IMG/VR virus record: IMGVR_UViG_3300035698_000956
Coordinates: 1 to 42,306 of that record
Origin: a virus
Length of the DNA stretch: 42,306 nucleotides
Strand: one strand, 5' to 3'
The position numbers were made by a program, and so were the translations under genes. Position 1 is the stretch's first letter; each line of letters starts with the position of its first letter. The notes beneath the pieces were generated by a model, which saw only the letters and a program-made list of their open reading frames with translations, was not told the DNA's origin and ran no database searches. Positions 1,370-41,654 of this stretch are shown one piece after another.

Positions 1370-1430
1370 GAGTCCACCGATGGCTACCAAAAGCCCTGCT
1401 ACTACTGAGCTGAGCCAATGTGGTGGACTC
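1370..1430. repeat. Inverted repeat upstream of and overlapping phage promoter 1
   Basis: GAGTCCACC (1370-1378) is the exact reverse complement of GGTGGACTC (1422-1430). Pairing continues inward: TGGCT after the left arm can pair with AGCCA before the right arm, with small bulges. The right arm lies inside the phage promoter, so the left arm is a mirrored half-promoter. In RNA reading through from upstream this could form a hairpin about 14 bp long with a loop of about 27 nt. No U-tract follows, so it does not look like an intrinsic terminator. Confidence 0.6.
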
Positions 1431-1438
1431 TTGGGAAA
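1416..1438 (+). promoter_or_regulatory. Phage RNA polymerase promoter 1 (upstream of RNAP gene)
   Basis: This 23-bp site matches two others in the genome (13146 and 39717) in 18 of 23 positions for the first. The shared core is ACTCTTG followed by a purine, then GAA. If the G at 1433 is +1, CAAT begins exactly at -17, as TAAT does in T7 promoters, and the transcript starts GGGAAAG, close to the T7 start GGGAGA. ACTGAGCT just upstream is shared with the 39717 copy. It lies about 100 bp before the RNA polymerase gene, implying autogenous transcription. Confidence 0.75.
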
Positions 1439-4058: not shown

Positions 4059-4087
4059 CACACACACAACACACAAGGAGAAAAAAA

Positions 4088-4828: not shown

Positions 4829-5394
4829 CTAGGCGCAAGCGTGGAAACACACAAGATGTTAAGCCTAGTAGACAGGAAGAGAAGCTTGAAGGTATCAATA
4901 TCACCTTTGCTTCTCGCTCGTGCGTGTACCGCTTTTACAGTATTGGCACTTATCCTATGCAGTATGTTATAGCTGAGGTTAAGACAAGCGAGAACGGTAA
5001 CACGTATGAGAAGGACGCAAGCTACTTCGATAGCATATTCGGTGCGCTTAACTACATAACACAGATTAAGATTCAAGGTATAACAGCACGAGACTTCGGG
5101 ATTCTATTCGAGAAGCTGTTTGCCTTACATAACGAGGGACTCACGTTCCTACGTACACTATCATTCAAGGAGGTAAAGAAGTATGCCACGACCACAACCA
5201 AGAAGGAGCAGGTCACGACCCCAACCACCAAGCGAAGACAGAGGGTCACGCAAGGTGAGAGCAAGACCGAGGGGTCAAGCAGAAGAAAGAGAAGCAATAC
5301 GCCACAGCAATCCGACACGACAGGCACGCAAAGGAAACGTAAAGCCTCGGCTAGTCCCTCTGTTTCTAATCGACGACCTCGAAGCAGGGTTTGA
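4825..5394 (+). CDS. Hypothetical protein with Lys/Arg/Thr/Ser-rich tail
   Basis: A 189-residue protein of unknown function, started by the ATGA overlap at 4825. The first 115 residues look globular (SRSCVYRFYS, VIAEVKTS, FGALNYITQIK). From about residue 118 to the end it is low-complexity and strongly basic (TTKRRQR, RRKRSNT, RKRKAS). That tail is encoded by 5183-5394, which is also the N-terminal coding region of the SSB gene in another frame. The overlap of 212 bases is much longer than others in this genome. The basic tail could bind nucleic acid, or could be a by-product of the overlap. Confidence 0.75.
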   Translation: MTRRKRGNTQDVKPSRQEEKLEGINITFASRSCVYRFYSIGTYPMQYVIAEVKTSENGNTYEKDASYFDSIFGALNYITQIKIQGITARDFGILFEKLFALHNEGLTFLRTLSFKEVKKYATTTTKKEQVTTPTTKRRQRVTQGESKTEGSSRRKRSNTPQQSDTTGTQRKRKASASPSVSNRRPRSRV

Positions 5395-6034
5395 GGTAGT
5401 CACCGAAGAATCAGAAGTTATGTGGGCTAAGATACACACACCTGACACGTTCAAGAACAAGACACAATACAAAATCAACATCATCAACGGTGGTACTGAG
5501 TGGTGGCAGGGATTCAAAGCACAGTGCATAGCACTAGCCGAAGCCTATTACACCGAGATGACATCGGACATGCACCAGAGTAAGATAGATGAGATTGAAT
5601 TAGTGTTACCCTTTCATGAGGAGTTTGATGACAAGGACGCTGATGGTACAGGTGAGTACCTCTTTGAATACATACAAGCTAAGATGTATGCGAGTTACAC
5701 GAAGAACGGTAAGACTAAACAGATGGCGCCCAAGGTTGTTGATTGCAACATGGTAAACACCAAGTCTGAACCCTTCAATGGTAGCACGTGTAAGGTCAAA
5801 GTCACAGTTAAGCCATACTTCATGGACACACGGGACAAGCTGATAGGTGTAACGATTTACTTTAGTGTGGTTCAGATAATCAAACTCGTTACAGGTGGAG
5901 CAGGAAACCTTGAAGGCTTTAGTAAAGAGGATGGGTACACTGACATGGGTGAAAGCTTCGAGGACACTGCACCTACTGATGATTACTATGATGATGACGT
6001 GGATAACTTCGACGCTAACGACATACCTTACTGA
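5183..6034 (+). CDS. Single-stranded DNA-binding protein (T7 gp2.5-like) with basic N-terminal extension
   Basis: A 283-residue homologue of T7 gp2.5 (232 residues), which coats single-stranded DNA and recruits polymerase and helicase through its acidic tail. From about residue 57 it follows the gp2.5 pattern: an OB-fold-like core with FEYIQAKMYASYTKNGKTK and CKVKVTVKPYF, then an acidic C terminus (DDYYDDDVDNFD) ending in an aromatic residue. The first 55 residues form an Arg/Pro-rich extension absent from T7 gp2.5. The start is well supported: AAGGAGG at 5167-5173 lies 9 bases before ATG 5183. The extension is therefore probably real and dual-coded with the previous gene. The stop and next start overlap as TGATG. 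Confidence 0.88.
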   Translation: MPRPQPRRSRSRPQPPSEDRGSRKVRARPRGQAEEREAIRHSNPTRQARKGNVKPRLVPLFLIDDLEAGFEVVTEESEVMWAKIHTPDTFKNKTQYKINIINGGTEWWQGFKAQCIALAEAYYTEMTSDMHQSKIDEIELVLPFHEEFDDKDADGTGEYLFEYIQAKMYASYTKNGKTKQMAPKVVDCNMVNTKSEPFNGSTCKVKVTVKPYFMDTRDKLIGVTIYFSVVQIIKLVTGGAGNLEGFSKEDGYTDMGESFEDTAPTDDYYDDDVDNFDANDIPY

Positions 6035-7017
6035 TGGGTAGGGCATGGAACAACCACTTCAGATTTAAACCTAAGCGAGTAGGAAAGTACAGGTCAAAGC
6101 TTGAGCATCGTGTAGCTTGCATGTTGGATAAGAGTGCAATCTCCTATGGCTACGAAGATACAACCATAGCATACATGATACCAGAGAAAGTACACAGCTA
6201 TACACCTGACTTCCGTTTGCCTAACGACATACTCGTGGAGGTTAAGGGGTTGTTTGATGCAGAGGATAGAGCGAAGGCTTTGTATGTACGTGACCAACAC
6301 CCTGATAGAGACATACGCTTTGTGTTTAGTAATCCGAAGAAGCGAATCAGTGGAAAAAAAATCAAAGGCACACCTATGACTTATGCTTCATGGTGTAAAG
6401 ATAATAAGTTTAAGTTCGCTAAGTCATACGTACCAACAGAGTGGCTACGTGAACGGAAGGAGGACATACTAAAAATGCAAGTGATAGAACACGGACTACA
6501 TTTAGAGGAGCATCTCCAAGCCTTGCAACTGCTTAACATACCATACAAGAAGGCAGTACCTTACGAAGATGAGTACGTGCAGTTGTTTATAGCTTATGAT
6601 TTGTGTGCATTACACAGGCTAAAGCTACTGATGAAAATCTATAAGCCAAGGTACTTCTGTGTGTTAGGTAACAAGGAACAAAAAGGATTCAGCAACTACC
6701 TCAATCGGGTATGTATACCTGTGCAAGCAGGACTTTACAGTGCTTGTGAGCAGATGTACTACGTGTGGACTAACATCCCTATCCTTAAAGACCTCGGAGA
6801 TAACACACACTACTCACTTGAAGGTAAGCACCCAAGATACAACCAAGCTTATAGTAAGAGCGTGCGTAAGAGGGAAGCAGCTAGAATACTCGGCGTAACT
6901 AGACCTGATACCATGTCAGAGATAGGGTTTAACCTACATGTACGTGAGGCTATACCAGTAGACTTCCTTGTCACACTACTTAAAGGATTGCGCCGACACT
7001 TTGGGACACCAAACTAA
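6034..7017 (+). CDS. Endonuclease I (T7 gp3-like Holliday junction resolvase) with C-terminal extra domain
   Basis: The first 150 residues match T7 endonuclease I, which resolves branched DNA and breaks host DNA. Active-site residues are in place: E24 in SKLEHRV, D59 in YTPDFRLP, E69 and K71 in VEVKGLFD. RDIRFVFSNPKKR and YASWCKDNKFKFAKSYVPTEW also follow the T7 protein. T7 gp3 ends at 149 residues. This protein is 327, with about 175 further residues (for example VPYEDEYVQLFIAYDLCALH and YFCVLGNKEQKGF) that I cannot assign. No stop or obvious ribosome site separates the parts. It starts inside the SSB stop (TGATG) and overlaps primase-helicase by up to 50 bases. Confidence 0.93.
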   Translation: MGRAWNNHFRFKPKRVGKYRSKLEHRVACMLDKSAISYGYEDTTIAYMIPEKVHSYTPDFRLPNDILVEVKGLFDAEDRAKALYVRDQHPDRDIRFVFSNPKKRISGKKIKGTPMTYASWCKDNKFKFAKSYVPTEWLRERKEDILKMQVIEHGLHLEEHLQALQLLNIPYKKAVPYEDEYVQLFIAYDLCALHRLKLLMKIYKPRYFCVLGNKEQKGFSNYLNRVCIPVQAGLYSACEQMYYVWTNIPILKDLGDNTHYSLEGKHPRYNQAYSKSVRKREAARILGVTRPDTMSEIGFNLHVREAIPVDFLVTLLKGLRRHFGTPN

Positions 7018-9316
7018 CTGTGAAGTGTGCGGTTCATCAGATGCAGGGTACGTGTATGATGATGGTGGTACATATTGTCACAAGTGTCACGCAGTAGGAG
7101 GGAGGAGAAAGGGAAGCATTCAACAAAAGAAGAAGATTAAGCCGTGCATTAACATTCCACGAGAGATACGGACGCTTCACGACAGGAAGCTCACTGATAA
7201 AACCTGTGCCAAGTATGGATATGCAGTCAGCACAAAGAAGTTGCGCTTCATTAGTGGCGGAGCTACAGCGCATGTTGCGGAGTACAGATGGGAAGGAAGA
7301 GTAGTTGCACAGCACATGCGTTCAACAGAGACCAAGGATTTCCTATGGTTAGGAGAGCGCAAGAGGGTTGAGCTATACGGACAACACCTATTTAGCAATA
7401 CGAAGAACACAAGATGGTCTACTGCTGTTGTAGTGACAGAGGGTATACCTGACTGCCTTGCTGTTAGTCAAGCGTTCAGAGGGAAGCGTGCAGTAGTAAG
7501 CGTACCAACAGGTGCGCCCTCTGCTTACAAGCATCTACGAAGAAATCTTGACTTCCTTGAGTCATTCGATGAAATCATTCTGTGGTTTGATGATGATGAC
7601 GAGGGACGTAAGGCAGTAGACAAGGCAATACCTTTGTTCACCGCAGGTAAGGTGAAGGTAGCCAAGGCTATGTATGGTTTCAAGGATGCAAACGCAATGA
7701 CTATGGCAGGCAAGCAGCTTGACATAGCTACATGCGTATACGAAGCACAACTATACAGACCCGATGAGATAGTACGTGGCAGTGAGATGAAAGTTAAGCT
7801 CAAGAATCGGACACGAGTTAAAGGTATTGATATACTATACCCTCAGCTAAGCGCAGGGTTACGAGGACTCAGACCGAAAGAGATAACTACATGGACAGCA
7901 GCCACAGGTATAGGTAAGACACACATGCTATCAGAGTTAGGGCTAGACCTTAACCAACGGGAGGACAAGAAGAACGTAGGGTTCATGTGTCTTGAGGACG
8001 CAGACATAGACACTGGTGATAAGCTAGTAGCCTTACACATGGGACGTAAGTTCCTTGACATAATGGAACATGAAGACCTGTCACCAGAGGAGCTGATAGA
8101 GTACGATAAGGCTCTTGATACGCTGTACTCTGACGATAGCTTCTGCTTTTACAATCACTTCGGTTCACTAGACAGTGAGCGTTTGTTCTCTATGCTTAGA
8201 CACATGGCTCTAGTAGAGGAGATGGATGTCATTGTACTCGACCATGTATCTATTATCATGAGTGGTATGGAGACAAAGGAAGGCGATGTTAAGGCGTTAG
8301 ACTTATTGATGACAGGCTTACGAGTATTAGTGGAACGAACAGGTGTAAACATACAGTTGATATGTCACCTACGTAAAGCTAAAGGACAAACTACACACGA
8401 GGAAGGAGCTAAGCCTAAGATGGACGACCTTAAGGGTAGTTCGGCTGTGATGCAGATAAGTGACAACATCGTTGGCGCACAACTGGTCAAGCAGAAGGAC
8501 GAAACCTACAAGGTACAGCTATGGCTGCTCAAGTGCCGAAAGAATGGCGCAGGTAGGGGACGCAAGGACATGCTTGTCTTTAACCCCGATACAGAAAGGT
8601 ATTCATGTGAGATGGACGAGGTAACTCACATGCCCACTACACACGGTAACACCTCAGCATTTGAATTAGATTCAGGAGATTTAACAATGGCTAGACGTAG
8701 TAAAGAAACAGTAAGCGTACAGGATAGAGCAGGAGTTGCACTCACAATAGGAACACCAGTAGTATTCGTAGCATCAGGCAAAAGAACACTTGAGTATGCA
8801 GAAGTAGCAGGATTTGGCAAAGCTAAAGTCAGCATCAACGTGTTCATTCCAGAAAACTCTAACAACGTAGAGAATACATTCCGTGAAGCAGGCGACCTCC
8901 TTGCTATCAGTGCTGACGACCTTCCAGAAGCAGAAGCTCTTGTGCTTGAAGACTGGAACAACGATGATGGTGAAGAAGAAGCACCTGCACCTAAGAAGAA
9001 AGTAGCACCTAAGAAGAAAGTAGAGAAGAAAGCACCACCAGTAGCAGGAGCAGACAACCCATCCATTGATGACATGCTTGACGAAATGATTGAAGCAGGG
9101 GAACTCACAGATGAAGAAGCAGACGCTATGGCTGATGACGAAATTATTGCTATGTATAATGACGCTGACGAAGACGAAGAAGAAGAAGCTTATGTTGAAC
9201 CACCTAAACCTGCAAGAAAACCAAGAGCAAAAGCACCTGTAGCTAAGAAACCTGCTATGTCTACACGTAACAGGAAACCAGCAGCTAAACCAGTAGCTAA
9301 ACGTAGAAGAAGATAG
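6968..9316 (+). CDS. Primase-helicase (T7 gp4-like), with in-frame C-terminal extension
   Basis: Bifunctional replicative primase and hexameric helicase. An N-terminal zinc-binding domain is visible (CEVCGSSD with CHKCH), then TOPRIM motifs (VVVTEGIPDCLAV and ILWFDDDDEGRKAV). The helicase Walker A is TGIGKT at residues 313-318, followed by VIVLDHVSIIMSG (Walker B type) and QLICHLRKAKG. No ATG precedes the zinc domain. The start is TTG 6968 or TTG 7001; AAAGGA at 6981 slightly favours the latter. A T7-sized helicase ends near residue 573 with an acidic aromatic stretch (AFELDSGD). The frame then continues for 209 more residues that look like a separate protein with its own start at 8687. Confidence 0.93.
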   Translation: MSHYLKDCADTLGHQTNCEVCGSSDAGYVYDDGGTYCHKCHAVGGRRKGSIQQKKKIKPCINIPREIRTLHDRKLTDKTCAKYGYAVSTKKLRFISGGATAHVAEYRWEGRVVAQHMRSTETKDFLWLGERKRVELYGQHLFSNTKNTRWSTAVVVTEGIPDCLAVSQAFRGKRAVVSVPTGAPSAYKHLRRNLDFLESFDEIILWFDDDDEGRKAVDKAIPLFTAGKVKVAKAMYGFKDANAMTMAGKQLDIATCVYEAQLYRPDEIVRGSEMKVKLKNRTRVKGIDILYPQLSAGLRGLRPKEITTWTAATGIGKTHMLSELGLDLNQREDKKNVGFMCLEDADIDTGDKLVALHMGRKFLDIMEHEDLSPEELIEYDKALDTLYSDDSFCFYNHFGSLDSERLFSMLRHMALVEEMDVIVLDHVSIIMSGMETKEGDVKALDLLMTGLRVLVERTGVNIQLICHLRKAKGQTTHEEGAKPKMDDLKGSSAVMQISDNIVGAQLVKQKDETYKVQLWLLKCRKNGAGRGRKDMLVFNPDTERYSCEMDEVTHMPTTHGNTSAFELDSGDLTMARRSKETVSVQDRAGVALTIGTPVVFVASGKRTLEYAEVAGFGKAKVSINVFIPENSNNVENTFREAGDLLAISADDLPEAEALVLEDWNNDDGEEEAPAPKKKVAPKKKVEKKAPPVAGADNPSIDDMLDEMIEAGELTDEEADAMADDEIIAMYNDADEDEEEEAYVEPPKPARKPRAKAPVAKKPAMSTRNRKPAAKPVAKRRRR
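8687..9316 (+). CDS. Probable independently translated protein from internal start in primase-helicase frame
   Basis: ATG 8687 lies in the primase-helicase frame with a strong ribosome site, AGGAG at 8674-8678, eight bases upstream. It falls exactly where a T7-length helicase should end. The 209-residue product has a small beta-rich N-terminal part (IGTPVVFVASGKRTLEYAEV, GFGKAKVSINVFIPE). Next comes a Lys/Pro/Ala-rich segment (APKKKVAPKKKVEKKAPP), a very acidic segment (DADEDEEEEAY) and a basic tail ending RRRR. This layout suggests a nucleic-acid-associated protein, but I do not recognise a family. It could be made both free and as a helicase fusion. A strong terminator follows at once. Confidence 0.65.
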   Translation: MARRSKETVSVQDRAGVALTIGTPVVFVASGKRTLEYAEVAGFGKAKVSINVFIPENSNNVENTFREAGDLLAISADDLPEAEALVLEDWNNDDGEEEAPAPKKKVAPKKKVEKKAPPVAGADNPSIDDMLDEMIEAGELTDEEADAMADDEIIAMYNDADEDEEEEAYVEPPKPARKPRAKAPVAKKPAMSTRNRKPAAKPVAKRRRR

Positions 9317-9334
9317 GCTAAGTACAGCACACAA

Positions 9335-9370
9335 GGGAGGGTACCTTCGGGTACTCTCCCTATTTTTCTT
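9335..9370 (+). terminator. Intrinsic terminator after primase-helicase
   Basis: An 11-bp stem (GGGAGGGTACC with GGTACTCTCCC, one G-U pair) closed by a TTCG tetraloop and followed by TATTTTTCTT. It lies between the primase-helicase stop and the DNA polymerase ribosome site. No phage promoter is visible between it and DNA polymerase, so it probably attenuates rather than blocks transcription. Confidence 0.92.
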
Positions 9371-9382: not shown

Positions 9383-11341
9383 ATGGATAGAAGGACGCAA
9401 TATAATTTTAAGAACCTAAAGAACATACGCCTACGTAACACAGAGGTATGGGATTTAGAAACAGATGACCTGTACCCTTACGCTGATTCTATATGGTGTA
9501 ACCACACGATGAACGTACACACTAAGGCAGTAGTGCGAGCAGACAACGATAGGTCAGGTGCTATTGTAGTAAACGAAACCCTGACTAGCCCTAAGTTACA
9601 GGTGCTTGTCGGACACAACATAACCAACTTCGATATACCATTGTACGAGGCTATGGGTGGCAAGCTATCACCTGATTGTTTGTTTGTTGATACTTTAATC
9701 ATGTCACGAGTAGCTTACCCTGAGATTGCTCTTCAAGACCTACGCCTGCTCAAGCAGGGATTCCCTAAGAAACTTATAGGCAAACATGGTCTTGAAGCGT
9801 GGGGTTACAGGATGAAACTACTTAAGGGTACGTATGGTAAGCAGAAGGATGCTTGGACAGAGTGGACACAAGAGATGTCGGACTACTGTGTACGCGACCT
9901 CGATGTTACACGCTTAGTGTATCTACACTTGCTCGAAGGACTCGACAACCCAAGCCACAAGGGTTACATAAACATACAGAGTTTAATATTAGCACATCAG
10001 GTCGCACATATAATCAGTAGGCAAGAGAAGTTTGGTGTGCCTTTCAACTTACGCAAAGGTCAGCAGCTTAGTGCCAAGCTGATAGATGAGCAAGACCAGT
10101 TATGTCTTAAGATACAACGCACGATTGAAGGGATTACTACGGTGATGAAGCTACCTGCATATCATACTGCACCTGATGGAGTTAGACATCTAACACTCAA
10201 GGCAGCAAAAGAAGCAGGGTGGCACAAGTCACACATGATAGCAGCAGAACCAGAGAAGCGATATGAACCTTTCAATCCTAACAGTCACAAGCAGGTGTAT
10301 ACATACTTCATGAAGACATACGGTTGGAAGCCTACTGTGTTCACTGATGGTGGTAAGGACAAGCTTGAGGAAAAGAAGCAGCCTAAGATTGATGACGAGA
10401 TACTACAGGCACTACCATATCCAGAAGCTAAGGACATAGGTAGGTACATGATGTTGCAGAAGAGAATCAGTCAGCTACTCACAGGTAAGTCAGCACTGCT
10501 CCGCAAGTACGACCATGACACAGGACGTATCTATGGTGCAGTCAATACTGAGGGTGCTAATGGCGGACGAATGACGCACTTCGCTCCTAACCTAGCACAA
10601 GTACCACGTGTAGGTACTGAGTATGGCACAGATTTTCGTGATTGCTTTGAAGCTCCAGAAGGTATGGTTCTAGTAGGTGCTGATGCTAGTGGTATAGAAG
10701 CACGAGTGTTGGGACACTTCCTACATCCTTATGATAAAGGAGCTTTCACACACAGGGCTATACATGGAGACAAGGACACTAACGATAGCATCCATTGTAT
10801 CAACGCTAAGATACTAGGGTGTGATAGAGACACAGCTAAGACTTGGTGGTATGCTTGGCAGTATGGAGCAGGAGCAGGTAAGCTTGCGAGCATACTCAAC
10901 TGTGACATAGTAACAGCAGCAAAACTAAGTGCTAAGTTCTTGCGTGAAAACCCCGCAATCAAGCAGCTTAAGGAAGACTTAGGCTCACAGATTAAACAGT
11001 ATGGTTTTCTAGTAGGCATGGATGGACGTAGGTTATACAGTAGAGCTGAACATAGTATACTCAACCTCGCATGTCAGAGTGCAGGTGCTATCATTATGAA
11101 GGTGGCACTGGTGCTACTAGACTTCTCTCTTGAAGGTAAGTGTGGACTGCGTAAGGGTCTTGAGTATGAGTTCGTGTTGAACATACATGATGAATGGCAG
11201 GTAGCCTGTCTACCTCAGTTCGCTCAGCTTATAGGTAACGAATCAATCAAGGCAATGGAGAAAGCAGGTAAGAAAGTAGGGTGTAAAGCACCTATTACTG
11301 GTAAGTTTGATGTAGGTAAATCATGGAAGGAGACACACTAA
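9383..11341 (+). CDS. DNA polymerase, family A (T7 gp5-like)
   Basis: A 652-residue replicative polymerase (T7 gp5 is 704). The N-terminal 3'-5' proofreading exonuclease has VWDLETDD (D24, E26), GHNITNFDIPLY and YCVRDLDVTRLVY. Polymerase motif A is DASGIEARVLGHF (from D434), motif B is AKTWWYAWQYGAG and motif C is HDEW (D603). The motif B Tyr at the T7 Y526 position is retained, as in T7. GGGAG lies five bases before ATG 9383, immediately after the terminator. It presumably works with the primase-helicase and SSB. The stop overlaps the next start as TAATG at 11339. Confidence 0.96.
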   Translation: MDRRTQYNFKNLKNIRLRNTEVWDLETDDLYPYADSIWCNHTMNVHTKAVVRADNDRSGAIVVNETLTSPKLQVLVGHNITNFDIPLYEAMGGKLSPDCLFVDTLIMSRVAYPEIALQDLRLLKQGFPKKLIGKHGLEAWGYRMKLLKGTYGKQKDAWTEWTQEMSDYCVRDLDVTRLVYLHLLEGLDNPSHKGYINIQSLILAHQVAHIISRQEKFGVPFNLRKGQQLSAKLIDEQDQLCLKIQRTIEGITTVMKLPAYHTAPDGVRHLTLKAAKEAGWHKSHMIAAEPEKRYEPFNPNSHKQVYTYFMKTYGWKPTVFTDGGKDKLEEKKQPKIDDEILQALPYPEAKDIGRYMMLQKRISQLLTGKSALLRKYDHDTGRIYGAVNTEGANGGRMTHFAPNLAQVPRVGTEYGTDFRDCFEAPEGMVLVGADASGIEARVLGHFLHPYDKGAFTHRAIHGDKDTNDSIHCINAKILGCDRDTAKTWWYAWQYGAGAGKLASILNCDIVTAAKLSAKFLRENPAIKQLKEDLGSQIKQYGFLVGMDGRRLYSRAEHSILNLACQSAGAIIMKVALVLLDFSLEGKCGLRKGLEYEFVLNIHDEWQVACLPQFAQLIGNESIKAMEKAGKKVGCKAPITGKFDVGKSWKETH

Positions 11342-12243: not shown

Positions 12244-12436
12244 ACTCCTACACCTTATAGGTGAGGGACTCGACACCATATCAGCCTGTATATTCATGGC
12301 TCTTGTAGTTCTTTTCCTACCGTTGATGTTCGCACTGGCAGCCTTCGGACTGCTAGGTGCTGTAGCCACACAGATATATACATATTTTACAGGAGGTACA
12401 TACGATGAGACCACGTTCACCGCAACTTTTGATTGA
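12233..12436 (+). CDS. Small membrane protein
   Basis: A 67-residue protein from ATG 12233 (a GTG at 12218 is also in frame). After a short N terminus it is almost wholly hydrophobic (FMALVVLFLPLMFALAAFG, LLGAVATQIYTYF), giving one long or two tightly packed membrane helices. It overlaps the gene before it and, by 32 bases, the exonuclease after it. Role unknown. Its position among replication genes rather than lysis genes argues against calling it a holin outright, though the hydrophobicity fits a small membrane-active protein. Confidence 0.6.
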   Translation: MIPKLLHLIGEGLDTISACIFMALVVLFLPLMFALAAFGLLGAVATQIYTYFTGGTYDETTFTATFD

Positions 12437-13145
12437 TGCCGACCTATTAGTGTATCGCTTCGCCTTTGCAGCAGAGACAGAGTTTGAAGGAGAGATAATC
12501 GTAGACGCAGAACATGCAGAGGAAAGGCTCGATGACTTCATGAATGATTTAATAGTACACCTCAAGCCTAGCAAGGTACACATGTGTCTAACTGATAGCA
12601 AGAATGGGTTCAGGAGAGGATTGTACCCTGAGTACAAAGGAGGAAGACCACCTAAGCCTAGACTGTATCGACATATGCGTGAGTACATAAAGGAACGCTA
12701 TGATTGTCTCGTCATGCGAGGACTTGAAGCTGATGACGTACTAGGAATCTATGGCACGTACCTACCTAATGCTATCATGTGTTCAATCGACAAGGACTTG
12801 ATGCAGATACAAGGCTACCATTTTAATTGGGAGCTATGGCAACTGTTACGTGTAGACGAGGATACAGCAGCGTACAACTTGTGGCTACAGATACTCATGG
12901 GGGACAGCACAGATAACTATGGTGGTGTACCATCAATAGGCAAGGGTAAAGCACCTGCTTACTTCGAGGACATAGACCCACATACCTATGGTATCACTGT
13001 AGCCAGTGTGTATCGTGCGTTCAGGCACAAGATAAAGCAGAAGTATGGCATGGGGTACAAGGACTACCTCAACATCATGTATAAATTAGCCAAGATTCTC
13101 ACCTATGAAGATTTCTGTGTATCGTCCTATTGGCGAGACATTTGA
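12405..13145 (+). CDS. 5'-3' exonuclease (T7 gp6-like, FEN family)
   Basis: A 246-residue exonuclease (T7 gp6 is 300) that removes primers and degrades host DNA. Metal-binding acidic residues are visible in order: D11 and D13 in LLIDADLL, the EADDVLG cluster (E108, D110, D111), D129 and D131 in SIDKDLMQI, and MGDSTDNYGGVPSIGKGKA, a helix-hairpin-helix-type region typical of this family. The GLYPEYKGGRPPKP arch segment also fits. AGGAGG precedes ATG 12405 inside the end of the membrane protein gene. The stop is followed almost directly by phage promoter 2. Confidence 0.92.
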   Translation: MRPRSPQLLIDADLLVYRFAFAAETEFEGEIIVDAEHAEERLDDFMNDLIVHLKPSKVHMCLTDSKNGFRRGLYPEYKGGRPPKPRLYRHMREYIKERYDCLVMRGLEADDVLGIYGTYLPNAIMCSIDKDLMQIQGYHFNWELWQLLRVDEDTAAYNLWLQILMGDSTDNYGGVPSIGKGKAPAYFEDIDPHTYGITVASVYRAFRHKIKQKYGMGYKDYLNIMYKLAKILTYEDFCVSSYWRDI

Positions 13146-13168
13146 TAATCTGGTGTACTCTTGAGAAG
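13146..13168 (+). promoter_or_regulatory. Phage RNA polymerase promoter 2 (late/virion region)
   Basis: TAATCTGGTG then TACTCTTGAGAAG, matching promoter 3 in 20 of 23 positions and promoter 1 in 18 of 23. TAAT begins at -17 if the G at 13163 is +1, the T7 geometry. It overlaps the exonuclease stop codon and is the likely start of the virion transcript. Confidence 0.8.
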
Positions 13169-13184
13169 TACGCTCTGCGTACTT
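13166..13184 (+). promoter_or_regulatory. Hairpin at the 5' end of the promoter 2 transcript
   Basis: AAGTACGC and GCGTACTT form a perfect 8-bp stem with a TCT loop. It starts at about +4 of the transcript predicted from promoter 2, so it would cap the 5' end of the virion mRNA and could protect it from 5'-dependent decay. There is no U-tract, so it is not a terminator. Confidence 0.65.
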
Positions 13185-13246
13185 AAGGTAACAATAAATC
13201 CTTTGGGTATACTCAGGTATACTCCCGTGTGTGCGTGGTGATAGGT

Positions 13247-13315
13247 AGGGAGGTAGTTTAATTGGGAAAACCGGACCTTACGAGGTGATGCAGGGTTCGA
13301 TGCCTGCTCTCCTTA
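13247..13315 (+). tRNA. tRNA-like element (degenerate or unusual tRNA)
   Basis: Several tRNA hallmarks occur in order. AGGGAGG can pair fully with TCTCCTT (acceptor stem, two G-U pairs). TA occupies positions 8-9. GTTT/AAAC forms a D stem with loop AATTGGGA, which has the expected GG. GCAGG and CCTGC flank a TTCGA T-loop core. ACC follows the acceptor. Against it, the total is about four to five bases short and the anticodon stem is weak (only ACC/GGT closing a loop with TTACGA). The T-loop also has an extra G. A possible anticodon is ACG (Arg). It may be a decayed tRNA, a tRNA mimic, or a processing signal in the virion transcript leader. Confidence 0.45.
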
Positions 13316-13375
13316 CCGATTCACTAAGATACATACGATAAAGCTAACCGCACAACACACACAAGGAGAATTATT

Positions 13376-13786
13376 ATGTCAAGCAAGAGACAAGGCAGAC
13401 TTAAGGATATGAACAAGAGGAGGAAACCAGAGCAGCCTACACTTAAGGCAATACCGCCACTAAGCGCAGACCTCGTAGCTGAGCTACTTAAGAACCATAA
13501 AGAGGCTTACATACATCACGAAGATTCCGATGTGTTTAGGCTACGCATAGAAGGGCAGCGCATTGCTATCCTCGACCTGAACAAGCAGTTCCTTAAGAAG
13601 AAAGTACCTGAGCTAAGCACTGACTTGATTAACATACTTCTTACCACGTACCCTGAGTCCTATGTGGACGATGGTGCTACAGATGTAACAAGGTTCAGGA
13701 ACGAAGGTAAACGTATGCTTGTACTCTCATTAAAACAACGCATGGAGTTAGCAAATGAACAAATCAAAACAGACGTTATCAAGTAA
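13376..13786 (+). CDS. Hypothetical protein upstream of portal, internally duplicated
   Basis: A 136-residue protein of unknown function, in the place of the small virion-associated genes before T7 gene 8. After a basic N terminus (KDMNKRRKP) there are two related units of about 50 residues. One starts near residue 29 (LSADLVAELLKNHKEAY, later RIEGQRIAIL). The other starts near residue 80 (LSTDLINILLTTYPESY, later RNEGKRMLVL). A clear ribosome site (ACACAAGGAG) precedes ATG 13376. Its end overlaps the portal gene by 32 bases. A minor head or head-tail role is inferred from position only. Confidence 0.75.
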   Translation: MSSKRQGRLKDMNKRRKPEQPTLKAIPPLSADLVAELLKNHKEAYIHHEDSDVFRLRIEGQRIAILDLNKQFLKKKVPELSTDLINILLTTYPESYVDDGATDVTRFRNEGKRMLVLSLKQRMELANEQIKTDVIK

Positions 13787-15326
13787 ATTAGGCACAGCAG
13801 GCAGCTTCTTTGAGAATGGTATCAGTGCAAGACAGGCAGTCCACGACCGTATGGTACAGGCTGCCGAACTCACTGTACCCTCACTGTACCTAGACACAGA
13901 CCATCCTGAAACAGAGGATGCTTACATACCTTACCAGAGCCTAGGCGCAGCAGGTATGCGAACACTAAGCTCAAAGTTTATGTTCGCTTTATTTCAGCCT
14001 AGCGTACCCTTCTTTGCTTTCAACACAGATGGCAAGGTAACACGTGAGCTAGAGCAGGTAGAAGCAGCAGGTGGCGAGGATGCTAATGTACGTACCGAAG
14101 TTATTGACATGCTTAAAGAAGAAGAAGAGTATGTACTCGATTACTTCGAGAGCTTGAAGATGAGAGGTGCGCTCACTGAGGCAGTCAAGCAATACATGCT
14201 AGGCAACGTAGCATTGGAGCTAGAGTTTGCTAAGACTAAGCCACGTAAAGATGTGAAGAGCATGATAGTACACAAACTTAATAGCTATGTATGTGAGCGT
14301 GCGCCTGATGGTATGGAGTTAAACCTAGGCTTCAAGGAACGCCTTAGCTTCCTGCAACTAACAGACGAAATGGTAGCAGCAACAGGTGTTACAGATGGTG
14401 AAGAAGTATGGGCGTATACCTTGTACCGTAAGGGTAAGAAGTATTGGTCATGTCAGCAGGAAGTGAACGGTGTAGAGATAAGCTACGAAGAGAAGGCTTA
14501 CACACATGAAAACTTTCCTTTCATCGTCCTGCGTGGCAGTGAGCGAAGCAATGAGAATTATGGGCGTGGTTACATAGACGAACTTATTGGTGACTTAAGA
14601 AGTCTTGAACGAGATGTTCAATCAATCAGTGATGCTAGTGTAATCATGAGCAAGATGATACCGATGGTACGCCCAGGCTCTAACATAGACATAGGCAGCT
14701 TATCACGAGCTAATACAGGAGATTTCCAGTACGGAGATAGAGCTGATGTAGGCTTCCTCCAAGCAGACAAGTTTCCTGACCTACAAGTTACACTCAAGCG
14801 CATCCAAGATGTCGAAGCTGCTCTAAGGTTTAGTTTCCTTATGCACGCATCAGCACAGAGACAGGCAGAACGTGTCACTAAGGCTGAGGTATTGTATATG
14901 GCAACGGAACTGGATGAAACACTTGGTGGACAGTACACGATGCTATCACCTCAGCTCCAAGACCCATTGCTTAAGCATCTTATACGTAAGAGCAAAAGCA
15001 AGGTATATAAGATGAAAGGTGTGAAGACTATCGTAACAACAGGTCTTGATGCCCTTGGTAAATCGAAGAACTTTCAACGCCTTGCACAGTATAAGCCTTT
15101 CGTGGACACAGACAAGGAAGGGACTATAGACAGTAAGGAATACAACAAGCGTGTAGCTACGAGTCTTAACATCAATCCTAATGGACTGATTAAAACTGTT
15201 AGTACACAGGAACAACAGCTCGCACAACAACAGCAACAGCTTGACCAACAGAAAATGCAGCTTGAGCAGGACGCTGCGAGCAAACCACAACCACAAGGCA
15301 CACCTCAGGGTATGCCTACACAATAA
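13755..15326 (+). CDS. Portal (head-tail connector) protein, T7 gp8-like
   Basis: A 523-residue portal (T7 gp8 is 536), the dodecameric ring at one capsid vertex through which DNA enters. The N terminus (AAELTVPSLYLD, YQSLGAAGMRTLSSKFMFALF) and the central ENYGRGYIDELIGDLRSLER are characteristic of T7-type portals, as is ERVTKAEVLYMATELDETLG. The last 40 residues are Gln-rich (QQLAQQQQQLDQQKMQLEQ). The start overlaps the preceding gene. It precedes scaffold and capsid as in T7. Confidence 0.95.
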   Translation: MNKSKQTLSSKLGTAGSFFENGISARQAVHDRMVQAAELTVPSLYLDTDHPETEDAYIPYQSLGAAGMRTLSSKFMFALFQPSVPFFAFNTDGKVTRELEQVEAAGGEDANVRTEVIDMLKEEEEYVLDYFESLKMRGALTEAVKQYMLGNVALELEFAKTKPRKDVKSMIVHKLNSYVCERAPDGMELNLGFKERLSFLQLTDEMVAATGVTDGEEVWAYTLYRKGKKYWSCQQEVNGVEISYEEKAYTHENFPFIVLRGSERSNENYGRGYIDELIGDLRSLERDVQSISDASVIMSKMIPMVRPGSNIDIGSLSRANTGDFQYGDRADVGFLQADKFPDLQVTLKRIQDVEAALRFSFLMHASAQRQAERVTKAEVLYMATELDETLGGQYTMLSPQLQDPLLKHLIRKSKSKVYKMKGVKTIVTTGLDALGKSKNFQRLAQYKPFVDTDKEGTIDSKEYNKRVATSLNINPNGLIKTVSTQEQQLAQQQQQLDQQKMQLEQDAASKPQPQGTPQGMPTQ

Positions 15327-15341: not shown

Positions 15342-15716
15342 ATGGTAGAAGTAATAAGAAGAAGGAAGAGAACAGCTAGGGTAGAACCTAAAGAAGAAAC
15401 TATGGCAGCTGCAAAGGTAACTAAACCTAAGAAGGCTAAGCTTACACTTGAGTCTCTATCAGCTGAGATACGCAAGCTCGCTGACATTGTAATGGGTAAT
15501 GTTAATCCACATGCACCTGTTAAGAACACACAAGCTAACATCTTAGCTAACATGGACATTCAGAAGAACATAGGTGTAGACAAGAACATCGCTACACGTA
15601 ACAGACGACAGAAGGTCATACAGCCTACTCAGAACCTACCACAGACAGCTACGTTTGATAAAACTACTGATGGTGGAGTCCAGATGATTGCTGCGACTGA
15701 TAGCGCACTTGAATAA
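15342..15716 (+). CDS. Hypothetical protein between portal and scaffold
   Basis: A 124-residue basic protein of unknown function. GGAGG lies before ATG 15342. It has a charged N terminus (RRRKRTARVEPKEE), a Lys-rich predicted helix (TKPKKAKLTLESLSAEIRKL) and little evident fold after that. The stop overlaps the scaffold start as TAATG, so the two are probably translated together. By position it could be a minor head or head-assembly protein. Confidence 0.7.
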   Translation: MVEVIRRRKRTARVEPKEETMAAAKVTKPKKAKLTLESLSAEIRKLADIVMGNVNPHAPVKNTQANILANMDIQKNIGVDKNIATRNRRQKVIQPTQNLPQTATFDKTTDGGVQMIAATDSALE

Positions 15717-16531
15717 TGGGCATACTCGGAGATAGTAACTTAGGTAGTGACATTCAGCAACAGCAACAAGGCTTGCCTAGTGACCAGAACAGAGGTGGCG
15801 AAGGCACAGGCCTGCTTGCAGGTAAGTTCAAGGATGATGATGCTCTTATGTTAGGCATTAAGAACATCGCAGCCAAAACAGGCGTACCACTTGAAGAAGT
15901 ATACAAACAGCTAGAGAGTAAGCTTGGTGCTAACGGTGAGGACGGTGAAGAAGGACAGGATGGGTTCAGAGAAGGTGGTAAGTTCAGAACTGCGAAGCAA
16001 CAGCAGGCAGGTACTATCACTATCGAAGACCCTAAGTTCGCTGCATCTATAGACAAAGGTACATTCACCCCTGTTGAGTTGCAGGAGCTACGTGGACTAG
16101 GGTATACTGATAACATGATTGAGATATATCTGACAGGTACACAGGCACAGCTACAGCAACAAGACAATGTTATCATTGAGAGCATTGGTGGACAGGGTGA
16201 GTATGACAAGATGATGGAGTGGGTAAATGCTAACTGCACACAAGCAGAGCATGCAGCCTTCAACGAAATCATTGACAGTAGAGATATGAGCAAGCGTAAG
16301 GAGCTTGTACGTGACCTATACCAAGATTTTCTGAGAGCTAACGGTAGCCAACCTCACTTACTCAGACAAGGTAACGCAGGCATCGCAGCAGCAGCAGCCA
16401 CGTATGGTTCATGGGCAGAGCTGACAGCAGACATGGCTGACCCTCGCTACTCAGACCCTAAGAAGAGAGACCCTGCATATATGATGCAGGTAGCAAATAA
16501 ATTGGCAAGGAGTAGCCTAGGTAGCAAGTAG
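15716..16531 (+). CDS. Capsid assembly scaffolding protein (T7 gp9-like)
   Basis: A 271-residue protein (T7 gp9 is 307) expected to guide capsid shell assembly and then leave. It has the usual profile: Gln/Gly/Glu-rich and probably flexible N-terminal half (SDIQQQQQGLPS), then helical, charged segments with a conserved-type stretch GGQGEYDKMMEWVNANC and a small C-terminal helical part. It starts within the previous stop (TAATG) without a strong ribosome site of its own. Its position directly before the capsid gene supports the call. Confidence 0.88.
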   Translation: MGILGDSNLGSDIQQQQQGLPSDQNRGGEGTGLLAGKFKDDDALMLGIKNIAAKTGVPLEEVYKQLESKLGANGEDGEEGQDGFREGGKFRTAKQQQAGTITIEDPKFAASIDKGTFTPVELQELRGLGYTDNMIEIYLTGTQAQLQQQDNVIIESIGGQGEYDKMMEWVNANCTQAEHAAFNEIIDSRDMSKRKELVRDLYQDFLRANGSQPHLLRQGNAGIAAAAATYGSWAELTADMADPRYSDPKKRDPAYMMQVANKLARSSLGSK

Positions 16532-16639: not shown

Positions 16640-17620
16640 ATGGCAGCAGCAACAGTATCAAGAATAGGGCAAAAGAACAACGCAGGCGACGTAGACTCGC
16701 TATTTCTAAAGTTATTTATGGGTGAAATCCTTCTGACGTTTGAACAGCTTTCTTACACGCTCGACAAACACATGGTTAGAAGCATCATGGGTGGTAAGAC
16801 TGCTCAGTTTCCTAATTTCGGGCAGATTTCAAGTGAATACCATACAGTAGGTGCAGAAATCACAGGACTCACCATGCCACACAACGAAAGAACTATCAGC
16901 ATTGATGGTCTACTTGTGACACATGCGTACCTTGCAGAAATTGACGAACTTAAGTCAGCTGTAAGCGACCTTAGAGGCATCTACAGTACAGAGATGGGCA
17001 GACAGTTATCAACAGTGTTTGATACGAGTGTATTCAAGAACCTTGTACTTGCATCAGTAGCAACAGGTAACCTTACAGGTGCGCCAGGTGGTACAACTAT
17101 CACATCTGATTACTTTAAAGTGGATGCCTCAGGTAGTGCTGACATCAATGAGTTAGCTCAGTATGTAGCAGCAGCTTTGTACCAGATGGCTCAGTCATTT
17201 GACGAGAACAATGTAATCGAAGAACGATACGCCTGCTTTCAGCCTGCGCTGTACTACGCTCTTGTACAGGGTGTACAACTCTCTGGTTTCAGTGCTATCC
17301 ACGCTCTTTATGGTGGACGGGGTTCGTTTGCAGAAGGTAACATCGTAAGCATCGCAGGTATCCAGATTGGTAAGTCTAACAACGTACCAACAACTAACCT
17401 TACAGGTGACACTTATCATGGTGTTGACGCTAGTAAAGTTAGAGGTCTTGTATGGTGTCCAAGTGCTGTAGGTACAGTTAAGCTTATGGACATTAAAGCA
17501 GAACAGGGATGGGACATGAGAAGACAGGCTACTTTGCTCTTGGCTAAGTATGCAATGGGTCATGGTATCCTCAGACCTGAATGCGCAGGAGTTATGAAGC
17601 TTAACTCACTTAGCAACTAA
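16640..17620 (+). CDS. Major capsid protein (T7 gp10A-like)
   Basis: A 326-residue shell protein (T7 gp10A is 345). GDVDSLFLKLFMGEILLTFE, the IDGLLVTHAYLAEIDELKS segment and the C-terminal MRRQATLLLAKYAMGHGIL follow the T7 capsid pattern. TTAAGGAG precedes ATG 16640 after a 108-base AT-rich gap (16532-16639), in which I see no site I can call with confidence. There is no second ORF or slippery extension resembling T7 gp10B. A strong terminator follows. Confidence 0.95.
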   Translation: MAAATVSRIGQKNNAGDVDSLFLKLFMGEILLTFEQLSYTLDKHMVRSIMGGKTAQFPNFGQISSEYHTVGAEITGLTMPHNERTISIDGLLVTHAYLAEIDELKSAVSDLRGIYSTEMGRQLSTVFDTSVFKNLVLASVATGNLTGAPGGTTITSDYFKVDASGSADINELAQYVAAALYQMAQSFDENNVIEERYACFQPALYYALVQGVQLSGFSAIHALYGGRGSFAEGNIVSIAGIQIGKSNNVPTTNLTGDTYHGVDASKVRGLVWCPSAVGTVKLMDIKAEQGWDMRRQATLLLAKYAMGHGILRPECAGVMKLNSLSN

Positions 17621-17655
17621 CACAGTAGTTTACCAGAACTATACAATTATTTTAA

Positions 17656-17692
17656 GGGGGTACACGAGGCAACTTGTGTACCCCTTCTTTTT
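17656..17692 (+). terminator. Intrinsic terminator after capsid gene
   Basis: A 12-bp stem (GGGGTACACGAG with CTTGTGTACCCC, one G-U pair) and a GCAA tetraloop, followed by TTCTTTTT. It occupies the position of the T7 late terminator T-phi downstream of gene 10. This limits transcription of the minor virion genes relative to the capsid gene. Confidence 0.93.
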
Positions 17693-17703
17693 GGAGGACA
17701 TAT

Positions 17704-17730: not shown

Positions 17731-17747
17731 GACGAAGGAGAAGCGTG

Positions 17748-18341
17748 ATGACTGAGATACAAGCAATCAACATAGTATTAGAGTGCGGCGAATTATCACC
17801 TGTAAGTGCCATAGCAGAAGGCATCAATACAGATAGTAACAGAGCATACGTAAAATTAATTGAGAAAATAAGTGAAGTACAAGCTAAAGGACTCCACTGC
17901 AATACACAGTACGAGGTAACACTAGCCTTTGATGCTATTACAGGCTATGTGCCAGTAGCAGGTACAGTACTTAACATAGAAGCATACGAATTAGAAGTAT
18001 TGCGTGTAACACAGAGAGGTGATTACCTCTATGACCTAACTAATAATACACAGGTCTTCACTGCTGACGTAGTATGTAATATAACCTATGAGTTAGCATG
18101 GGCAGATTTACCTCTGCATGTACAGTCTTATATAGCACAATACGCAGGGCGTATATTTGCACAGAAAACTCTTGGTAACGAAGGAACTCTCAACGAGGAA
18201 GGTCGTGATGAAGCTATAGCACACGAAGAATTGAGACGTATAGAGCTAAGGCTCGGCAACAAAAACTTTTTAACAGGGAGCATAGGGGGACAGATAGCTA
18301 CTAACCAGTATCGTAACCCACACCCATATAGGAGATACTAA
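17748..18341 (+). CDS. Tail tubular protein A / adaptor (T7 gp11-like)
   Basis: A 197-residue protein (T7 gp11 is 196) that forms the ring below the portal and carries the tail fibres. AINIVLECGELSPVSAIAEG, YDLTNNTQVFTADVVCNITY and the central AQYAGRIFAQKTLGNE match the family pattern. ATG 17748 is preferred to GTG 17745 because AAGGAG then sits seven bases upstream. It directly follows the capsid terminator and the short leader frame. Confidence 0.92.
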   Translation: MTEIQAINIVLECGELSPVSAIAEGINTDSNRAYVKLIEKISEVQAKGLHCNTQYEVTLAFDAITGYVPVAGTVLNIEAYELEVLRVTQRGDYLYDLTNNTQVFTADVVCNITYELAWADLPLHVQSYIAQYAGRIFAQKTLGNEGTLNEEGRDEAIAHEELRRIELRLGNKNFLTGSIGGQIATNQYRNPHPYRRY

Positions 18342-18342
18342 C

Positions 18343-20712
18343 ATGACTAGAAAGACACTACCTACGAAGCATGGAGTACAAGGAGTCACCGCAAGTAAGA
18401 ACAGTATAGCAGATAGTGTCAAGGACATGGAGAATGTTATATTAGATTTCTACAAGAAGGAAGTACGCAGGCGCAGTGGCGCAGAAATAATAGGGTACAG
18501 GACACATGTGATAGATACGGTGAGCAAGATAAAATCTATTGCGCTAGGAGACTTAGTGGTCACTCTAGATACTAATACGTCTGCTACTAGCCCTGTAATT
18601 GAAGCAGTCAACACAAGTACGATGACGACTGCTACTATAGCACATGGACGATGGGATAAAGACGGTTTCCATGTAGACAGTGGATATACGGCGTACACAG
18701 AAGCCTATATTAAGAGTGGTTCAACTACAGCTAAGCTTAAACACATGCATAAAGGTCTTATGTGTATTAATAGCAATGTACTTCCTATAAAGGAAGCAGC
18801 ATCTGATGGGACTTATGAGTCAGGAATCACTAAGGCACTTATTGGAGTACACGCAGCTATCTCAGGCATAACTTATAGCTTCGTAGATGGCACGGGGCTT
18901 GTGACAGGGGCATACACAGCATTAGTAGGAGATACGCCTAATAATGTAAGAGATGGTCTAAGGGCGAGCCTGACACTTGCTCCTGCTATAACGAATTTTC
19001 CAGCGGGTACATCTAGTATTGTTGCACTTGTTACTACACATCATGATTTAGTGACTGACCAATATGAGACAGGCTATTTAGCCACAGCTACGGTTAACAA
19101 TGCAAGGTCTGTAGCTGACCTACCTAAAGAGGGATTTAACAATTACACTATAAAAATAGTGGGTGAGGGTGTAGCTACGAAAGGATACTATGTTAAGTAT
19201 GATGATTCCGTCCGTTCGTGGGTGGAGTGCTCAGGTGCAGCTTACAACATACCTGATTACAAGACACTACCTGTATACATGGAGTACAATACAACAACTA
19301 ACACACTAAACGTAGGACAGATTTCGTCTTTAGCCAGAGAAGCAGGGGACGACACATCTAATCCTGACCCTGCCTTCTTTGGAGAAGGTCTTCACATCAT
19401 AGATGCCTTTATGTACAAGGGACGAGCCTGTTTTATTACAGAGAAGTCGATACACATGTCAGACCTTAAGTCCGTATACTCATTCAACTTCTATCAAACT
19501 ACAGTATTAGAGAATCTGGCTACTGCTGCTATCAATGCATACATAGGTACGACAGGAGAGACAGAGGTGTACTTGTTAGAAGCTATTGCCACAGATAACA
19601 ATGTAATTCTCGTAGGTAAGAACCAAGCGTTCTCTGTATCAAGTGTAGGCGCTGTAACAAACACAAGTATTAAGGTAGAACCTATTGCAACAATCAATGC
19701 AGCCGATGGTGGACACTTCAAGCTAGGTAATAATGTGTTCATACGGAGCATAGAGGGTGACTACAGCAAATACTTTGAGATAGTAACGCAGAAAGATACA
19801 AATATCAAAGGCGCTTATAGTGTGACAGCTCATCTATTACAGTACCTTCCTAGCAACATAAAGGTAACAGCTACAGTACCTAACATGGGAATGGCTTTCA
19901 TCTCTAATGGTACAGACATATATGTGTATCAACAGCAGTACAACGGCAATACTAAAATGCAGGAAGCGTGGCATAAATGGACATACCCTGATACTATCAT
20001 AGCTATGTTGTCGAACGGTACAGATAAGTTGTATATACAACACCCAATATCAGCGTCAAACAGGCTATACCTCACCGGTACAGCCCTAAACATACCAGAG
20101 GATGATGCAGGACTAGGCTATTACATGCTACTAGATTATAAAGATACGATAAATGGGTCGTATACAGCAGGTACAGATACTACAGTTATAACTATACCCG
20201 CCGTTGGTAACGCAGATGCATCTAATTGGACGATAATAAACAAAAGTACAGGTGTAGAACTCACTAACTCAGAAGCTTCTGCTGCTGTTACAGTAAGTGG
20301 AGATTTCTCAGTTGGGGATAGTGCTGTCATCGGGCAACCTTTTGAGAGCTATGTAGTCCTTGACGACCCGATGATGCTGAATTATAGGCAAGATGCAAGG
20401 ATTACGTACCGAAAAGAAGTTATTGTCGGTGTTGACGTGTCCATACGTGACACAGGTTATTTCAAATTAGTGAATACAGTCGTTAATAAACCTGTTGACA
20501 CGAGAGAGTTCATTGCTTCTGTGTATGGTACAGGTTATGGTATCATAGCACCTATAATAGAATACGCAAAAGAATACTTTAGGATAGGAGACAGGGTTAA
20601 GTACACAACTATAGGTTTGTACACAGGTACCCTGTCTTACTTCCCATTTACGCTCGTAGGCTATACGTACATCATGCGTATACATAAGAAAGGAAGGAGG
20701 GGTCAGACATGA
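18343..20712 (+). CDS. Tail tubular protein B / nozzle (T7 gp12-like)
   Basis: A 789-residue protein (T7 gp12 is 794) forming the hexameric tail nozzle. The N terminus has the usual TKHGVQGVTAS, DSVKDMENVILDFYKKEVRRR, and later DAFMYKGRACFITEKSIHMS and QEAWHKWTYPD, typical of this beta-rich family. AGGAG lies before ATG 18343. The end overlaps the next gene by four bases (ATGA at 20709). Confidence 0.95.
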   Translation: MTRKTLPTKHGVQGVTASKNSIADSVKDMENVILDFYKKEVRRRSGAEIIGYRTHVIDTVSKIKSIALGDLVVTLDTNTSATSPVIEAVNTSTMTTATIAHGRWDKDGFHVDSGYTAYTEAYIKSGSTTAKLKHMHKGLMCINSNVLPIKEAASDGTYESGITKALIGVHAAISGITYSFVDGTGLVTGAYTALVGDTPNNVRDGLRASLTLAPAITNFPAGTSSIVALVTTHHDLVTDQYETGYLATATVNNARSVADLPKEGFNNYTIKIVGEGVATKGYYVKYDDSVRSWVECSGAAYNIPDYKTLPVYMEYNTTTNTLNVGQISSLAREAGDDTSNPDPAFFGEGLHIIDAFMYKGRACFITEKSIHMSDLKSVYSFNFYQTTVLENLATAAINAYIGTTGETEVYLLEAIATDNNVILVGKNQAFSVSSVGAVTNTSIKVEPIATINAADGGHFKLGNNVFIRSIEGDYSKYFEIVTQKDTNIKGAYSVTAHLLQYLPSNIKVTATVPNMGMAFISNGTDIYVYQQQYNGNTKMQEAWHKWTYPDTIIAMLSNGTDKLYIQHPISASNRLYLTGTALNIPEDDAGLGYYMLLDYKDTINGSYTAGTDTTVITIPAVGNADASNWTIINKSTGVELTNSEASAAVTVSGDFSVGDSAVIGQPFESYVVLDDPMMLNYRQDARITYRKEVIVGVDVSIRDTGYFKLVNTVVNKPVDTREFIASVYGTGYGIIAPIIEYAKEYFRIGDRVKYTTIGLYTGTLSYFPFTLVGYTYIMRIHKKGRRGQT

Positions 20713-30419: not shown

Positions 30420-32860
<2,441 letters not shown>

Positions 32861-32861
<1 letters not shown>

Positions 32862-37256: not shown

Positions 37257-37667
37257 ATGAAAAACTTTCTAATGGAAAATGCGATTGTGATAGTGTATAT
37301 GGTCAGTGCCTTGCTGTGTATCTTAATAAGCCTCGCGTGCAAGTGGATGAAGACCAAGATGGCAGGTCAGGCATCGCAGGCACTGTGGGACGAGATAGAA
37401 CGTGCAGTGACCCTCGCTGTAAAGGCAACGACACAGCAGATAGTAAAGCCGTACAAAAAGCTGAACGATTCTGGCTCTCTAAGCGCAACACAGGGTAAGG
37501 AAGCATTACAGTTTGCTAAGCAGATAGCAATGTCAGAGCTAGGTGAGCAGGGTAAGAAGTACATCGCCGATAAGTCAACACAGGCGTTTGACTATCTTAA
37601 GCAGCGCATAGAAGCTGTACTGCCAACGGTAAAGTACAATGCGGTGGTGAAGGTAATAGAAGGCTAG
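37257..37667 (+). CDS. Probable LLH-family holin
   Basis: A 136-residue protein with one N-terminal membrane span (AIVIVYMVSALLCILISLAC) and a helical cytoplasmic or periplasmic part. ERAVTLAVKATTQQIVKP and QGKEALQFAKQIAMSEL follow the pattern of the phage LL-H holin family: membrane span, then Ala/Val-rich helix, then a Gly-Lys followed by an amphipathic helix. It would release the lysozyme. T7 places its holin (gp17.5) just before terminase genes as well, which supports the call. Confidence 0.7.
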   Translation: MKNFLMENAIVIVYMVSALLCILISLACKWMKTKMAGQASQALWDEIERAVTLAVKATTQQIVKPYKKLNDSGSLSATQGKEALQFAKQIAMSELGEQGKKYIADKSTQAFDYLKQRIEAVLPTVKYNAVVKVIEG

Positions 37668-39682: not shown

Positions 39683-39716
39683 ACTCTGACATACACTACT
39701 ATCACTGAGCTAACCC

Positions 39717-39739
39717 TAATCTGTCGGACTCTTGAGAAG
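39717..39739 (+). promoter_or_regulatory. Phage RNA polymerase promoter 3 (genome right end)
   Basis: TAATCTGTCG then GACTCTTGAGAAG, matching promoter 2 in 20 of 23 positions. TAAT falls at -17 if G 39734 is +1. ACTGAGCT just upstream is shared with promoter 1. No gene lies directly downstream for 700 bases. This recalls T7 phi-OR, a promoter near the right end that aids replication and packaging rather than expression. Confidence 0.8.
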
Positions 39740-41653: not shown

Positions 41654-41654
41654 C

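Follow-up and report, generated by a model that had tools for sequence, protein, structure and literature searches.

Among the closest described systems, T7 carries 17 promoter sites of the form TAATACGACTCACTATAGGGAGA, with GACTC at positions -11 to -7. Of these, phi6.5 lies right behind the exonuclease gene and phiOR right behind gene 19, and phiOL is followed by phi1.1A, with none lying directly before gene 1. The specificity loop of the T7 RNA polymerase (RNAP) reads part of this element through N748, which contacts -10 and -11, R756, which contacts -9, and Q758, which contacts -8 (PMC5937735). The T7/T3/SP6 branch has the promoter core CACTATAG, in which positions -4, -3, -1, and +1 are conserved (PMC13029058). 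In the temperate phage LUZ100, transcription starts mapped by ONT-cappable-seq place phi1 directly before the RNAP gene, phi6 in the gap between exonuclease and virion genes, and phi8 after the terminase large subunit gene (TerL; PMC10134795). EM1 RNAP, a metagenome-derived phage polymerase, was shown in vitro to use its own promoter, which T7 RNAP does not use (PMC9596486).

We analyzed a stretch of 42,306 nucleotides (the window) that makes up positions 1 to 42,306 of IMG/VR virus record IMGVR_UViG_3300035698_000956. The window, the genome of a T7-like podovirus, encodes its own single-subunit RNAP and, in a T7-like co-directional order, homologues of gp2.5, the endonuclease, gp4, gp5, gp6, portal, scaffold, capsid, tubular proteins, and TerL, as is expected of a member of the Autographiviridae (Table 1). 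As in EM1, the phage is uncultured and the enzyme is of the T7 class with what appears to be its own promoter, but the EM1 promoter TCAGAAGTCACACTATAA retains the T7 CACTATA core, unlike the elements described below.

Table 1. Features of the window, with positions counted from its first nucleotide
Feature	Coordinates	Strand	Details
Promoter site 1 (predicted)	1416-1438	+	CAATGTGGTGGACTCTTGGGAAA; predicted +1 is G at 1433; RNAP start codon 109 nt downstream
Single-subunit T7-class RNAP, 838 aa	1542-4058	+	PHROG 414, E=1e-175; T7 RNAP, E=7e-73
Specificity loop (beta hairpin), residues 679-707	3576-3662	+	From alignments; hairpin in model
gp2.5-like ssDNA-binding protein	5183-6034
Endonuclease	6034-7017
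Primase-helicase	6968-9316
DNA polymerase	9383-11341
gp6-like exonuclease	12405-13145	+	Abuts site 2 upstream; PHROG 107, E=2.5e-51
Promoter site 2 (predicted)	13146-13168	+	TAATCTGGTGTACTCTTGAGAAG; predicted +1 is G at 13163
5'-terminal hairpin of predicted site 2 transcript	13166-13184	+	-9.7 kcal/mol; equaled by 4 of 200 shuffles
Portal	13755-15326
Scaffold	15716-16531
Capsid	16640-17620
Intrinsic terminator right after major capsid gene (T-phi position)	17655-17686	+	-24.6 kcal/mol for 17640-17700; z -5.65
Tubular proteins	17745-20712
Tail fibre	30420-32861		Collagen-like and other internal repeats
Holin	37257-37667
Terminase large subunit	37871-39682	+	Next upstream of site 3; PHROG 38, E=1e-99
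Promoter site 3 (predicted)	39717-39739	+	TAATCTGTCGGACTCTTGAGAAG; predicted +1 is G at 39734
Sigma-70-like promoter, TTGACA-17-TAGAAT	40345-40373	+	11/12 consensus; ahead of ORFs 40446-42186

A preliminary description of the window, made from its letters alone, had reported three related 23-mers that share 18 to 20 positions. All three sites were found where they had been placed, but pairwise identities were 18/23, 17/23, and 20/23, which widens the range to 17 to 20. Scanning the whole window with their consensus at three or fewer mismatches returned exactly three matches against 0.01 expected, although this consensus was derived from the sites themselves, so that unbiased tests carry more weight. 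One such test, a query-free repeat search of the window, recovered the same sites as a repeat family (D17). In another, a search for any equally similar triple of 23-mers yielded only this family and one ribosome-binding-site leader family in the window, and 1 of 60 dinucleotide shuffles yielded any triple of such similarity. Intergenic sequence makes up just 5.0% of the window, and the sites, all on the plus strand, occupy its three largest intergenic gaps (1331-1541, 13146-13375, and 39683-40445). A position matrix, the scan that the preliminary description had proposed, scored the three sites at 33 to 35 and the next-best position at 10. This leaves no weaker tail of additional sites, and the set is therefore three. 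The sites thus present what defines a T7-class promoter family: an element of about 23 bp, repeated in the direction of the genes and ahead of gene blocks.

Read from -17 with a G as +1, the sites are CAATGTGGTGGACTCTT-GGGAAA (site 1), TAATCTGGTGTACTCTT-GAGAAG (site 2), and TAATCTGTCGGACTCTT-GAGAAG (site 3), the start G in all three being placed by alignment. Each has an AT-rich block at -17 to -13, with YAAT at -17 to -14, followed by a specificity segment at -12 to -5. These features bear out the T7 geometry that had been proposed, with TAAT or CAAT at -17. The 23-bp layout of T7 is preserved, and T7 and all three sites have in common A-16, A-15, T-14, G-11, A-6, C-5, T-4, T-2, G+1, G+3, and A+4. 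In the T7 register the window core reads GACTCTTG or TACTCTTG instead of CACTATAG. The preliminary description had considered the T7 core to be replaced; we find it modified instead, with departures at three of eight core positions (-7, -3, and -1). The window keeps T at -4 and G at +1 but has C at -3 and T at -1, and its sites consequently do not carry the core of the T7/T3/SP6 branch. The same departures at -3 and -1 occur in LUZ100 phi1 and phi6 and in many of the motifs that we identified de novo, indicating that the CACTATAG core marks a branch and not the whole class. Upstream of the core, the sites have G[GT][TC]G[GT] at -11 to -7, against GACTC in T7. Together with the replacement of N748 by K and of Q758 by E, as judged by alignment, this sets the sites apart from T7 promoters proper, which are readable by T7 RNAP.

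The positions of the sites have counterparts in other phages. The first base of site 2 is the base right after the exonuclease stop codon, with the virion genes downstream, and this is the position of T7 phi6.5 and LUZ100 phi6. Site 3 begins 35 nt past the large terminase gene, as T7 phiOR and LUZ100 phi8 lie just past TerL. Counterparts of site 1 are LUZ100 phi1 and the sites before RNAP in the Roseobacter phages CRP-113 and CRP-114. Of the earlier proposal that the sites stand where T7 logic wants them, the placements before the virion genes and at the phiOR position hold, but the placement before RNAP does not, as gene 1 of T7 is not directly preceded by a T7 promoter. A self-promoter there is instead the arrangement of LUZ100, CRP-113/114, and several metagenomic relatives, and the annotation of gh-1 includes a putative one. 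Likewise, site 3 had been described as lying at the right end; it has a phiOR-like position, but the end of the contig is 2.6 kb away. The window also lacks a site before the capsid gene or immediately behind RNAP, where one is often present in relatives.

LUZ100 resembles the window in having a promoter before RNAP, before the virion genes, and after TerL, each with an AT block upstream, and the start box of its phi1 and phi6 ends in TCTTGG, similar to that of the window. It differs in its specificity segment (TACCACACAG), in a distance from AT block to start that is one base longer, in its number of promoters (eight versus three), and in having D at the polymerase position corresponding to T7 748, where the window has K. 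The LUZ100 polymerase is 29% identical to that of the window. LUZ100 also carries the temperate genes MarR and integrase, which we did not recognize in the window.

For CRP-113 and CRP-114, an unsupervised search returned a five-member family with one site on either side of RNAP, one behind lysozyme, one ahead of the virion genes, and one where DNA maturase B ends; in control runs this search recovered the 17 promoters of T7 and 7 of 8 in LUZ100. For jiawei and S2B no promoter family could be named, as GC-rich coding repeats swamped the motif search. The CRP-113/114 motif, GATTAGGTTGCACCATAG, comes from this analysis and not from experimentally mapped promoters. In CRP-113 the motif shares G-11, G-8, A-6, and C-5 with the window. 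In both phages, the sites ahead of RNAP, ahead of the virion genes, and at the TerL end correspond to the three sites of the window. In contrast, the AT block of the motif is ATTA, its core is CACCATAG or CACCTAAG, and the sites after RNAP and after lysozyme are additional. The CRP-113 polymerase is about 30% identical to that of the window and, like it, has VKT at loop positions 747 to 749. In CRP-113, a further repeated sequence, TCTAACCCGAAA, lies close to promoters or to the ends of genes (5479, 11224, and 39001), with related copies at two of the metagenomic loci surveyed below (L080 and L082).

The window polymerase is 28% identical to T7 RNAP and is full length, with the catalytic residues D510, K581, Y589, and D746 invariant in alignments. 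Its AlphaFold model (mean pLDDT of 87) has the T7 enzyme fold and matches T7 RNAP elongation complexes with Z scores up to 40. The confidence of the specificity loop within this model is low, with a mean pLDDT of only 66 for the loop and 57 for residues 681 to 700. Alignments confirmed the earlier observation that this region differs from T7. K687 corresponds to T7 N748, R694 to T7 R756, and E696 to T7 Q758, with K687 being placed by a multiple alignment that contains a one-residue gap and is not certain at this position. A pairwise loop alignment that put V at position 748 was set aside, as the multiple alignment with this gap gives K.

SP6 and K11 promoters have G at -11, as do the sites of the window, and the SP6 and K11 polymerases likewise have a basic residue at 748. 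They are unlike the window in their CACTATAG core, in the bases at -9 and -8, and in the remainder of the loop. We compared residue 748 with base -11 across polymerases, in a table for which promoter register was set by eye and whose sequences are related by descent: of 14 polymerases with a basic residue, 11 had G at -11, and of 16 with an acidic residue, none did (Fisher p = 7e-6); the association persisted after near-duplicates were thinned (p = 0.0015). The window was left out of this table and fits its trend, with K687 and G-11 in all three sites, and HTVC031P (K at 748; AAGGTTCCCATAG) also fits. Exceptions were three metagenomic loci (L021, L038, and L067) and CRP-403, which has R at 748 and a family of two members only. 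The pattern is consistent with recognition of the three sites by the window polymerase, as support and not as proof. It may also reflect a readable natural code across the Autographiviridae, a proposal that we regard as tentative and somewhat short of probable. Under such a code, residue 748, and probably also 756 and 758, would predict bases -11 and -10 (and -9 and -8), so that the sequence of a polymerase would partly predict its promoter, with mutual orthogonality among many pairs. If the code holds, the window pair (K687 with G-11 and [GT]-10; E696 with G-8) would contribute a natural example of E758 paired with G-8.

To place the window among its relatives, we surveyed 79 IMG/VR polymerase loci. 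About 30 had a repeated promoter-like motif beside the polymerase gene, and many of the remainder are short contigs on which the motif test has little power. The cores found include CACTCTCGC, CACCTACAC, CACCCTTAG, CACTTAAGC, and GCACAATTGG, and none is the motif of the window. Across the loci numbered L014 to L093, together with L097 (CRP-113) and L098, we observed many distinct T7-class promoter families, often directly before and after RNAP. Since about 30 loci have a motif or core of their own, a private core is common, and a distinct pair is not exceptional; the window motif is new in sequence but ordinary in kind for this part of the family. In many of the divergent Autographiviridae surveyed, conserved positions carry a promoter family particular to the phage, often with one member directly before the polymerase gene, and such families make a comparative test of recognition rules possible from metagenomic sequence.

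The window motif was found in no other phage genome searched. A strict exact scan of IMG/VR (2.9 million viral contigs) returned one non-T7-like locus, present in two contigs and within coding sequence. A looser exact scan of the same database returned 69 stretches with one match each, and those examined encoded no relative of the window polymerase in the part of the contig covered; four of these matches lie antisense at one shared position of a terminase gene with 35% identity. Searches for closely related RNAP, terminase, or capsid proteins in IMG/VR, and for a closely related RNAP in GTDB genomes, returned none, and a search of phage records found nothing near. The closest polymerases were 27 to 33% identical. 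The most similar loop tip (TFWG) occurs at two surveyed loci (L022 and L031), neither of which has a window-like motif.

These comparisons indicate that the three sites are very probably the promoter set of the phage's own single-subunit RNAP. The distinct polymerase-promoter pair put forward in the preliminary description is also the best reading of our sequence analysis, with comparative positions, an intact T7-class polymerase, and a divergent specificity loop in agreement. With such a pair, the list of phage polymerases and promoter sets useful as orthogonal transcription tools would gain one more of distinct sequence.

The alternative that survives best, though we consider it improbable, is that the repeat binds another phage protein, as a repressor operator, a replication-origin element, or a packaging signal, and is not a promoter. 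T7 phiOL and phiOR double as secondary replication origins, and site 3 adjoins 763 bp of non-coding sequence in which the genome end may lie; an origin role would, however, add to promoter activity and not replace it. MarR sites have been proposed to flank the promoter before RNAP in temperate T7-like phages (PMC10134795), but among the early ORFs tested in the window we found no family match to a MarR-like regulator or tyrosine integrase, an absence that is weak evidence. Binding sites of this kind would also leave unexplained why every copy is oriented with transcription and keeps T7 geometry, why two copies come right after one gene and ahead of the next block of genes, and why relatives carry promoters at exactly these places. 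Reading of the three sites by host RNA polymerase is less probable still. The sites do precede genes, and no host, and hence no set of sigma factors, is assigned to the phage, but no sigma-70-like hexamer pair is reported at any of them, whereas a near-consensus one stands at 40345 before the early genes. Moreover, the conserved block covers +1 to +5, which is unusual for sigma-70 promoters and normal for T7-class promoters. A chance or compositional repeat, which the one shuffle with a comparable triple might suggest, is the least probable reading, given the expected number of consensus copies, the location of all three sites on one strand in the three largest gaps, and the finding of only single matches per stretch in the looser scans.

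Taking the sites as promoters of the phage polymerase, we propose the following course of transcription, in which we infer polymerase binding, the +1 positions, and the order of events. Host polymerase would first transcribe the early genes, from 40446 onward and across the contig join to 1330, reading into the polymerase gene. The phage polymerase would then bind the AT block at -17, with its specificity loop reading the -12 to -5 segment, melt the TCTT segment, and initiate at G. Initiation at site 1 would amplify the polymerase gene along with the downstream DNA-metabolism genes; initiation at site 2 would yield transcripts of the head and tail genes, up to and partly past a terminator that follows the capsid gene as in T7; and initiation at site 3 would yield those of the genome-end region. 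The sigma-70-like site at 40345 is likely the host-read early promoter, although it is a consensus match only, and the whole scan showed no excess of such sites over shuffles. It lies at the right end of the non-coding stretch that separates TerL from the early ORFs (39683-40445), which probably holds both the end of the packaged genome and the early control region. The contig would accordingly be permuted relative to the packaged genome, with site 3 corresponding to phiOR.

Other elements of the window were also recorded. Rfam and tRNA searches of the window returned no match. Besides the terminator after the capsid gene, two other strong intrinsic terminators lie in the gap between primase-helicase and DNA polymerase (9334-9361) and after the first early ORF (41043-41066), and all three have z scores of -4.65 to -5.65. 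A second repeated element, ACACACAACACACAAGGAGAA, at 4059-4087, 13347-13375, and 41200-41227 precedes ORFs 4088, 13376, and 41228 as their ribosome-binding-site leader. Finally, the hairpin at the 5' end of the predicted site 2 transcript begins three bases past the predicted +1, with none at sites 1 and 3, and recalls the stem-loop at the 5' end of the phi10 leader in T7.
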